Part shown: in pieces, positions 14,756-62,730 of the stretch
Position numbering within the stretch: the first letter of the stretch is position 1
Layout: the number at the start of each line of letters is the position of its first letter
Source of the DNA: Micavibrio sp.
GTDB lineage: Bacteria > Pseudomonadota > Alphaproteobacteria > UBA9219
Length of the DNA stretch: 64,000 nucleotides
Assembly: GCA_020718105.1 (NCBI GenBank)
Contig: DYDA01000003.1
Location: 17,332 to 81,331, forward strand
Direction of reading: 5' to 3'
Notes under the pieces: model-generated
The model's database searches: none
What the model saw: only the letters and a program-made list of their open reading frames with translations
Told to the model about the DNA's origin: nothing
Position numbers and translations under genes: made by a program

Positions 14756-14878
14756 CGTCATTGCGAACGCAGCGAAGCAATCCAGCGCCGCGCGTCCGCG
14801 CGGCATAAGACTCATAGGCACCGCAGACGCGGCGCAGCTGGATTGCCGCGTCGGCCTTACGGCCTCCTCGCAATGACG
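14756..14878. repeat. Dispersed palindromic repeat, family B (intergenic copy)
   Basis: The segment opens CGTCATTGCGAACGCAGCG and closes with the inverted counterpart CCTCGCAATGACG; inner parts AAGCAATCCAG and CTGGATTGC also pair. It lies between the transporter ATPase and permease genes. The same family recurs inside trmB (62033-62176). Confidence 0.85.
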
Positions 14879-22965: not shown

Positions 22966-23037
22966 AAGAGAGGGCGTCTAACGAAGAACGGGACAGGAGG
23001 AAATCCAATTTTCTTGTTTTTTTCTTCTGCCAGAAAG

Positions 23038-23067
23038 CCAACTCTTGAACTGTTTTCAGTATAGCTC
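23038..23067 (+). repeat. 30-bp direct repeat, copy 2, upstream of phaR
   Basis: CCAACTCTTGAACTGTTTTC then AGTATAGCTC. CTTGAA followed 15 bases later by CTCATTT resembles the sigma-32 promoter pattern of alphaproteobacteria (CTTGAA / CYTATNT), but the match is not decisive. A shorter relative, CTTGAACTGTTTT, lies upstream of aroA at 26769-26781. Confidence 0.6.
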
Positions 23068-23267
23068 ATTTCATAAAGCGGTTGGTTTTAGCCTTGGCGG
23101 CGATTCCCAATTGCCACAACTCAAAAAATCTTTACCAAAAGATTAAAAGGCTCTTGTATTTTTTTCTCGAATGGAGAAAATTGGTTAATCTTCTTTTCTT
23201 GGATTCGGGTGCGTTGCCACCCACCACCTTCTCACTTCGTCCTCCCTCATCACGTAGGAACAAAATC

Positions 23268-30153: not shown

Positions 30154-31698
30154 ATGACAAGGCCGCCCGTCATCATCATCGGCGCAGGGCTGGCTGGCCT
30201 GACGGTTGCGTTGTCGCTTGCGCCGCAACCTTGCATCGTTCTGGGCCGCAAGGCCATGGCGGGCCTGACGAGCAGCGAATTGGCGCAAGGCGGCATTGCG
30301 GCGGCGGTGGGCGAGGGCGATGCGCCGCTCTATCACGAAAAAGATACGCTGGCGGCGGGCGCTGGTTTTTGCGATCCAAAGGTTGTTCGCATGATCACGC
30401 AGGCCGCGCCTTCTGTGATTGCTTTGCTGCAAGAATGGGGCGTGGCGTTTGATCGCGATGCGGCGGGACTTCTTGAAATGGGGTTGGAAGGGGCGCATAG
30501 CCATCGCCGCATCGTTCATGCGCAGGGCGATTCCACGGGTAAGGCGATAATGCAAGCTTTGGTGGATCGTGCGCGCGCCGCTCCCTCCATAACCTTGATG
30601 GAAGATGTTGAGGTGACGCAGATTCTAACCAATCAACCTTCTTCCGTCACTCCCGCGCAAGCGGGAGTCCCGTTTGGTTTTAATAAAAAACGGGATCCCC
30701 GTTTTCACGGGGATGACGAGCTGGGTGTTTGTAAGACTATCACAGGCGTCCTTTATCATCAGCGCGGATCAATGGAGTCCCTTCACCTCTTAACGGACAG
30801 CGTTGTTCTGGCGACGGGCAGCGCGTGTGCGCTTTGGCAAAACACAACGGTTCCCCTTGGCTCGTGGGGGCATGGCCTTTTGCTGGCGGCGAACGCGGGG
30901 GCGGCGCTTCAAGATTTAGAGTTTGTGCAGTTTCATCCTACGGGGCTGGCTGCGGGATGCGATCCTATGCCGCTGATCAGCGAGGCCGTGCGCGGTGATG
31001 GCGCGTTGCTGGTGAATGAGCGCGGGGAGCGTTTTGTGGATGAGCTTGCGCCGCGTGACGTGGTGGCTCTTTCCATCGCTGCACAGATTGAATGGGGACG
31101 GCGTGTTTTTCTTGATGCGCGAAGGCTACAGGATTTCGTCGCGCATTTTCCTACGGTGTTCGGGATTTGCCGTAAGGCGGGGCTTGATCCTGCGCAAGAG
31201 TTGATCCCTGTTCATCCTGTCGCGCATTATCATATGGGCGGCATTGCGACGAACGCGCAAGGGAAGACGAACGTGCAAGGTCTTTGGGCGTGCGGCGAGT
31301 GCGCGGCGACGGGGCTTCATGGCGCAAACCGCCTTGCCAGCAACTCGTTGTTAGAGGCCGTCGCGATGGGGCAACGTGTGGCGGAGGCTATCAACAAATC
31401 GGATTTCGAATCTGCGCCCCCCTCGCGCTTCGCTCAGGATGACCTTGTCCAGAATAACGAGAAAAAAGGGGATACGCCTGAAACGATTTCACAGGTGCGC
31501 GAAGTGATGACCCGTTATGTCGGCGTGATGCGTGATGCGGCAGGGCTGCATAGGGCGATAGAGAGGCTTGCGTCGTTGGAAAAAGCGGGATCGTCTCGCG
31601 CCGCTGTGGGGTTGCTGATCGCCAGCGCGGCTCTGGCACGCGTCCAAAGCCTTGGCGCGCATTACCGCATGGATGAAAGAAGGGAAAAGCATGGTTGA
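30154..31698 (+). CDS. nadB: L-aspartate oxidase carrying two repeat-derived insertions
   Basis: NadB oxidises aspartate to iminoaspartate for NadA. FAD and substrate motifs are present: VIIIGAGLAGLTVALSL (5-21), SSELAQGGIAAAV, HSHRRIVHAQGDSTGKAIMQ, VQFHPTGLA, GDGALLVNERGERF, HYHMGGIATN and ECAATGLHGANRLASNSLLE. Residues about 164-189 (SSVTPAQAGVPF ... RDPRFHGDDEL) come from a family A palindromic repeat read in frame, inside the FAD domain. A second short segment near 419-430 (APPSRFAQDDL) also looks repeat-derived, in the linker before the C-terminal helical domain. The frame is open throughout, so a full-length protein is expected, but its activity is uncertain. Confidence 0.94.
   Translation: MTRPPVIIIGAGLAGLTVALSLAPQPCIVLGRKAMAGLTSSELAQGGIAAAVGEGDAPLYHEKDTLAAGAGFCDPKVVRMITQAAPSVIALLQEWGVAFDRDAAGLLEMGLEGAHSHRRIVHAQGDSTGKAIMQALVDRARAAPSITLMEDVEVTQILTNQPSSVTPAQAGVPFGFNKKRDPRFHGDDELGVCKTITGVLYHQRGSMESLHLLTDSVVLATGSACALWQNTTVPLGSWGHGLLLAANAGAALQDLEFVQFHPTGLAAGCDPMPLISEAVRGDGALLVNERGERFVDELAPRDVVALSIAAQIEWGRRVFLDARRLQDFVAHFPTVFGICRKAGLDPAQELIPVHPVAHYHMGGIATNAQGKTNVQGLWACGECAATGLHGANRLASNSLLEAVAMGQRVAEAINKSDFESAPPSRFAQDDLVQNNEKKGDTPETISQVREVMTRYVGVMRDAAGLHRAIERLASLEKAGSSRAAVGLLIASAALARVQSLGAHYRMDERREKHG
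30645..30718. repeat. Family A palindromic repeat inside nadB
   Basis: An inverted pair: CGTCACTCCCGCGCAAGCGG ... and AACGGGATCCCCGTTTTCAC followed by GGGGATGACG. The same design as the intergenic family A pairs is kept open as coding sequence within nadB. Confidence 0.88.
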
Positions 31699-61859: not shown

Positions 61860-61890
61860 GTTATTGGGGTTGCATAAAGGGCAAGAGGCC

Positions 61891-62730
61891 ATGATGGAAG
61901 AACAGCCTAAAACAAAACGCCTTTTTGGTCGCCGTAAGGGTCGCCCTTTGCGGGCGGGTCGCGCATCGCTGATGGATACGCTGTTGCCAAAGGTGGGGAT
62001 AGCGATTCCTGCGATCGTTGATACAGATAATCCGTCATTGCGAGCGACCCCCGCGAAAGCGGGGGGAAGCGTGGCAATCCATCTCCCGCACCTTCCACCA
62101 TCGCTTTTGTCTGACAGTTTGGGTGATGGATTGCCACGTCGCTTCGGCCTGACGGCCTCTGCTCCTCGCAATGACGGGGCGCTCAACCCCTTCGCCCTAT
62201 TTGACGCTGTGCCTGAAGCCGTGCGCCTTGAAATCGGCTTTGGGGGCGGCGAGCATTTGGCGGCGCAGGCGGCGGCGAATCCTTCCGTTGGTTTTATGGG
62301 GTGCGAGCCTTTCATCAACGGCGTGGCGAAGCTTTTGACGCAGATTGAAGCGCAGGATTTAAAGAATATCCGCATCTATCCCGACGATGCGCGTGTTTTG
62401 TTGGACGCTTTGCCAGACGCGTGCCTTGATATGTGTTTTGTTTTATACGCCGACCCGTGGCCTAAAAACCGTCATGCGGAGCGTCGCTTTATCGGAAAAG
62501 AAAATCTGGATCGTCTTGCGCGTGTGTTGAAGTCCGATGGGCAGTTGCGCCTTGCTACCGATGTGGCAGCACTTGCGCAATGGATGCGTGAGCAAACGAA
62601 CGCGCATCCGTCTTTTGCTTGCGTTTATGATGGGCCAAACGCGCCCACTGATTGGGTCCCAACGCGCTATGAGCAAAAGGGTATCGCCGCTGGCCGCACG
62701 CCAACCTATTTGGTTTATAAACGGCGCTGA
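61891..62730 (+). CDS. trmB: tRNA (guanine46-N7)-methyltransferase with in-frame repeat insertion
   Basis: TrmB methylates G46 of tRNAs. The N-terminal basic part (LFGRRKGRPLRAGRASLMDT) and core motifs LEIGFGGGEHLAAQAAANPS (SAM), IYPDDARVLLDALPD, YADPWPKNRHAERRF and TRYEQKGIAAGRTPTYL are intact. Between KVGIAIPAIVDTD and NPFALFDAVPEAV lies an extra segment of about 48 residues (48-95; PSLRATPAKAGGSVA ... ASAPRNDGAL), exactly matching a 144-bp family B repeat, so the frame is preserved. It would form a loop before the Rossmann domain. The start at MMEEQPK has AAGAGG upstream. Confidence 0.93.
   Translation: MMEEQPKTKRLFGRRKGRPLRAGRASLMDTLLPKVGIAIPAIVDTDNPSLRATPAKAGGSVAIHLPHLPPSLLSDSLGDGLPRRFGLTASAPRNDGALNPFALFDAVPEAVRLEIGFGGGEHLAAQAAANPSVGFMGCEPFINGVAKLLTQIEAQDLKNIRIYPDDARVLLDALPDACLDMCFVLYADPWPKNRHAERRFIGKENLDRLARVLKSDGQLRLATDVAALAQWMREQTNAHPSFACVYDGPNAPTDWVPTRYEQKGIAAGRTPTYLVYKRR
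62033..62176. repeat. Family B palindromic repeat inside trmB (144 bp, 48 codons)
   Basis: It opens CGTCATTGCGAGCGACCC, contains AAGCGTGGCAATCCAT and the inverted ATGGATTGCCACGTCGCTTC, and closes CCTCGCAATGACG. The ends match the intergenic copy at 14756-14878. Its length is a multiple of three and no stop occurs in the trmB frame. Confidence 0.92.

Follow-up and report, generated by a model that had tools for sequence, protein, structure and literature searches.

In a Micavibrio-like alphaproteobacterium we identified a 144-bp palindromic repeat (a CGTC-tagged REP dimer; 62033..62176, forward strand) that lies inside trmB and is open in the frame of the gene. Judging from sequence comparisons, we regard it as very probable that this repeat is a tolerated selfish element in a permissive TrmB linker, and that the gene is read through it. 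The window analysed (64,000 nt) corresponds to positions 17332-81331 of contig C4 in the draft genome of the host (G000; 1.91 Mb, 42 contigs, 96% complete). Within it, the trmB CDS (61891..62730, forward strand; 279 aa, ATG start, stop codon counted in) is clearly identifiable as the gene for tRNA (guanosine-46-N7) methyltransferase: a Pfam search matched PF02390 to residues 111-270 (E 4.5e-39), both the SAM motif EIGFGGGEH and the DPWPK motif (DPWPKNRHAERR) are present, and the TIGR00091 score (112.3 bits) is marginally below the cut-off of 112.65. The product comprises a conserved basic N-terminal part (KRLFGRRKGRPLR...; 61891..62001, forward strand), encoded by the 37 codons ahead of the insert, and the conserved end of the linker (LNPFALF) followed by the SAM methyltransferase domain (62182..62727, forward strand). 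A putative Shine-Dalgarno-like site (AAGAGG, 61883..61888, forward strand) precedes the ATG and is hence situated 5' of the insert. Homology suggests that the TrmB linker is permissive. An AlphaFold2 model of TrmB was discarded (the alignment consisted of two sequences, TrmB and the sister protein; mean pLDDT 35).

The repeat, whose coordinates had been given exactly in the earlier note, starts with CGTCATTGCGAG (62033), ends with CTCGCAATGACG (62176) and is built of two CGTC...CCA halves placed head to head (49 + 45 + 50 nt). The left half (62033..62081, forward strand; CGTC ... CCA) contains an inner GC hairpin at 62048-62065; the 45-nt spacer (62082..62126, forward strand) is partly common to other copies of the same spacer subtype (CCAT-type), and the right half (62127..62176, forward strand; TGG ... 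GACG) terminates in 17 nt that are also found in the sister species (G005). The palindrome is predicted to fold strongly as RNA (MFE -82.4 kcal/mol, z = -9.4), with an outer stem of only 5 bp (ATTGC/GCAAT) enclosing a variable inner part. The repeat at 62033-62176 has no match in Rfam. Three of the six frames of this copy are open, and in trmB the codon register is one base off the start of the repeat (cCG TCA TTG). As measured between FGRRKG and EIGFGGGEH, the distance amounts to 96 residues, as compared to 43 at an empty site; the net gain is 53 codons, not 48, because the bases flanking the repeat differ too. The length of exactly 48 codons claimed previously therefore holds for the 144 nt themselves, but neither for the net gain nor for the codon boundaries, and the linker, which was said to have been replaced, is interrupted by a repeat inserted within it. 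Insert-junction peptides expected from the TrmB sequence include ...VDTDNPSLR and NDGALNPFALFDAVPEAVR.

The repeat belongs to a family that is widespread in the genome: with at most one mismatch, its 11-nt end motif occurs 84+80 times, as compared to 10+10 times for the reversed control. By searching for the CGTC end motif (at most one mismatch, the copies being read from the stretches fetched around the matches) we recovered 49 complete dimers with a median length of 124 bp, which fall by their spacers into a CCAT-type (31 dimers, including the one in trmB), a CCAG-type (17 dimers) and one dimer in neither. A CCA tail is present in 94 of the 98 dimer halves, and the trmB copy starts with CGTCAT. 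The search for further genomic copies proposed in the earlier note thus returned dozens, several of them intragenic. The intergenic copy at 14756..14878 (forward strand), to which the trmB repeat had been matched at both ends, is by copy comparison a dimer of the CCAG subtype; the likeness of the ends was confirmed, but it stops there, since the spacers are of different subtypes. Furthermore, as 36% of the frames are open when the 49 copies are taken together, the open frame of the trmB copy, correctly described as free of stops over its 144 nt, is on its own weak evidence. We also observed REP copies with near-identical flanks (G000 C2:84, C22:27148, C34:113298, C42:117429, C21:27978 and C27:38685), several of which are located at contig ends, as parts of a longer repeat unit at which the assembly is probably interrupted.

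Comparison with relatives, based on draft genomes, showed that the trmB site is empty in the congeners G002, G003 and G004, in G010 and in many others, the distance from FGRRKG to EIGFGGGEH being 35-47 residues in most of the order. Relatives without the 48-residue insert, as anticipated, are thus numerous, and none was seen that carries the same 48 residues. The sister species G005 (77% protein identity), whose TrmB spans 103 residues between the two motifs, carries an in-frame insert at this very site, of which just the last 17 nt (TGCTCCTCGCAATGACG) are shared with the G000 repeat. The rest of it is another palindrome (TCACCCTCCCCTTGCGGGAGGG...; CCCTCCCC-type) with more than 100 matching pieces in each of the two genomes. 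The two TrmB inserts have almost no peptide in common, and the insert-bearing stretches (180 nt in G000, 201 nt in G005) are both divisible by three. The same trmB as in G005 is found on the MAG contig that is the closest publicly named relative, which was deposited under the name Micavibrio aeruginosavorus SulCav_GS09 and was the sole contig returned by the contig scan. Moreover, in G032 (a different family of the order) a third palindrome, with 63 matching pieces in that genome, is lodged in the same TrmB linker. A TrmB match was not found in G026 and G030, and the trmB of G029 (C1:1605151-1605831) is split over two frames, which is either real or a sequencing error.

Other genes display similar patterns of presence and absence. 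The PrmC linker ahead of the SAM domain contains a CGTC dimer in G000 and, in related genera, a short CGTC-type palindrome (G006, L179) or a CCCTCCCCC-type one (G010, L180), while PrmC of G001 and others is devoid of an insert; the G006 protein has one more palindromic repeat at its C-terminus. The yejF insert occurs in identical frame in G000 and G005. The anmK insert is present in G000 only and is absent from the 88%-identical G005. In G005, an in-frame CGTC dimer (PSSREEPKAERGDPAAE...APRNDG) was also observed in recG, which encodes a DNA helicase (L177).

In G000 the repeat is in frame in eight conserved genes, identified through profile searches: trmB, prmC, carB, a trpE/trpG fusion, anmK, murU, yejF and ubiV (the ubiV copy, of which a single exact end was recognised, is outside the set of 49). 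In carB the copy sits between the two homologous halves, and the carB profile match is near-full-length (1693 bits). The lengths of the repeats in these eight genes range from 111 to 146 bp and are not multiples of three in carB (146), murU (122) and yejF (139), which means that small edge changes must restore the frame and that the exact 48 codons of trmB are no rule. Three codon phases are used (PSL/SSL, VI and RHC). Under random net length and frame, eight in-frame cases out of eight would have a probability of about 4e-8, for a search that began from open ORFs and is thereby biased toward in-frame cases. No gene broken by a copy was found among the 14 same-strand flanking ORF pairs examined (19 flanking proteins scanned): the scanned neighbours match different families (ruvA/ruvB, purF/epmA, cysS/gltX, ddl/murB, nuoE/nuoD, ftsY/mtaB and others), so that none of those pairs is a split gene, while the remaining flanking ORFs (e.g. 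parC) were assessed by visual inspection, and a gene interrupted close to one of its ends could escape detection. Copies that disrupted conserved genes have, in our interpretation, been lost. Within the window, coding palindromes were observed in two genes, trmB and nadB (L-aspartate oxidase, 30154-31698), the latter with a shorter, in-frame CGTC-type REP dimer (30643..30720, forward strand; palindrome pair PSSVTPAQAGVPFGFNKKRDPRFHGDDELG). In the ubiU/ubiV region (G000 C36), one dimer (23009-23131) is located between ubiU and ubiV and another one inside ubiV (23617 onwards), about 0.5 kb apart.

Purifying selection acts on both sides of the trmB insert: between G000 and G005 the dN/dS is 0.125 for the 37 codons before it (Fisher p 1.8e-5) and 0.088 for the 182 codons after it. 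Given the low value upstream of the insert in both insert-bearing species, TrmB is most likely translated through the insert, and would then retain its enzymatic function. For yejF, whose insert is the sole shared one amenable to comparison, the dN/dS is 0.87 within the insert as compared to 0.155 and 0.109 in its flanks (based on 50 codons that could be aligned in a diverged repeat, and hence indicative only), which would fit a peptide that is close to unconstrained in a frame that is kept. Read together, these values are indicative of genes that are translated through their inserts, with the frame being under selection and the peptide not.

We considered that the inserted peptide may have been recruited for a function (e.g. 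an extra tRNA contact or the regulation of TrmB) and retained for that. The insert has indeed been kept, or overwritten by one of similar length, in two species, and three palindrome families occur in the same TrmB linker across the order; but the peptides encoded in G000 and G005 have hardly anything in common, the comparable yejF insert is nearly neutral, and the inserts of unrelated enzymes are read in three frames and so yield no common peptide, all of which makes recruitment unlikely. We consider it very unlikely that translation begins 3' of the repeat, with the repeat and the N-terminal fragment being either an untranslated leader or a short peptide of its own, and with expression being regulated by the hairpin. 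Such a late start would be in keeping with the GTG codons that follow the insert, and a position outside the true gene has been suspected for N-terminal REPs in several species (PMC3733652). It is contradicted by the 37 upstream codons, which show purifying selection in the two lineages and are conserved across the order, by the position of the Shine-Dalgarno-like site, by the frame being kept in the inserts of both species and by the location of the repeat well inside the protein in carB, trpE/G, nadB and yejF.

Given that open frames are not rare in this repeat family, trmB could in principle be a young pseudogene that is open by luck; however, the low dN/dS of both flanks since the divergence from the insert-bearing G005, together with the same pattern in seven other conserved genes (including the near-full-length carB), renders this extremely improbable. 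An assembly chimera at the repeat, of the kind that a 42-contig draft with many repeat copies might harbor, is scarcely conceivable: the flanks are the two halves of one gene, the identity of the trmB copy to its best matches among the other copies reaches only about 74%, and the independent assembly of G005 has an insert at the same site.

The tolerated selfish element that we favor would have had the following history, which is the simplest one compatible with the sequences. In the shared ancestor of G000 and G005, a non-autonomous, CGTC-tagged REP dimer would have entered the flexible linker that joins the basic N-terminus to the SAM domain. Its net length would by chance have kept the frame and, with one frame of the repeat being free of stops, translation would have continued straight through, leaving TrmB with about 53 extra residues. 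Selection would act on the open frame only (because the enzyme must still be made) and not on the peptide, and most of the repeat would later have been overwritten in the G005 lineage by another palindrome family, again in frame. More tentatively, the linkers that precede the SAM domain in TrmB and PrmC might be hotspots of re-invasion, which unrelated palindrome families enter and overwrite, always in frame; we put this forward as a possibility in which our confidence is limited. If true, REPs would constitute a recurrent source of new linker peptide in bacterial enzymes.

As for the movement of the repeat, no target-site duplication of at least 3 bp was found in the 49 copies, and flank-to-flank pairing (i.e. 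an extended palindrome) was not above chance (p 0.38). A RAYT gene (Y1 transposase, PF01797) was found in none of the genomes G000-G004 and once in G005; RAYT was thus rejected as the mover of the G000 repeat, whose genome is without such a gene. The 12 nt to the left of the 49 dimers are depleted in G (7% vs 23% further out) and the 12 nt to their right in C (9% vs 25% further out), and this base bias of the flanks, with no target-site duplication, suggests a possible sequence preference at the insertion site.

Palindromes within coding sequences are known above all from Rickettsia and Wolbachia. The CGTC REPs, mainly alphaproteobacterial, have been defined with M. aeruginosavorus listed as a CGTC-1 host (Di Nocera et al. 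2013, PMC3733652); most of them are intergenic and some intragenic, a dedicated transposase was not found for them, and RPE-6 and RPE-4 of R. conorii were equated with CGTC-1 and CGTC-4 REPs, respectively (PMC3733652). The trmB repeat resembles them in its CGTC ends, the AT at the first stem positions, the CCA tails, the alphaproteobacterial host and the arrangement as head-head dimers with a spacer of 20-100 nt. It differs from CGTC-1 to CGTC-4 (8-9 bp stem, 4-5 nt loop) in having halves of about 49-50 nt with a 5-bp outer stem, and on account of this mismatch in stem-loop size we call it CGTC-tagged REP-dimer-like, outside families 1-4. The kinship to rickettsial elements suggested in the earlier note is in this way supported by the literature (PMC3733652), not by sequence alignment. 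Intragenic CGTC REPs and RPE-4/6 have already been described, and the trmB case belongs to that kind.

Among the rickettsial elements, RPE-4, RPE-6 and RPE-7 are 100-150 bp palindromes that are in frame in unrelated metabolic genes (Ogata 2000 as related in PMC10969869; PMC3767692), with different groups occupying identical or nearby positions of a gene in different species, much as we observe here. They differ in their obligate intracellular hosts (the present host is not Rickettsia), and the TrmB site goes beyond them in that each family found at it is separate and high-copy, and that empty sites exist within the same genus. RPE-1 is likewise of similar size and in frame in conserved genes, but a conserved peptide has been reported for it (PMC10969869), while three codon phases are used here. 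With MITEs the repeat shares its shortness, inverted ends, non-autonomous nature and multiple copies; it differs in that its 49 copies are without a target-site duplication of at least 3 bp and no cognate transposase was identified. In R. japonica, different RPE groups were found at the same gene positions, and the choice between insertion hotspots and one diverged insert was left open (PMC3767692). What the trmB site adds is a well-resolved case of unrelated palindrome families replacing one another at a single coding position, together with quantified selection around it. That one linker occurs in an empty state, with a CGTC dimer and with other high-copy families favors repeated invasion of permissive sites. 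Moreover, the low dN/dS of the flanks and the near-neutral yejF insert put numbers on the idea of a 'tolerated passenger', which is testable with single enzymes.
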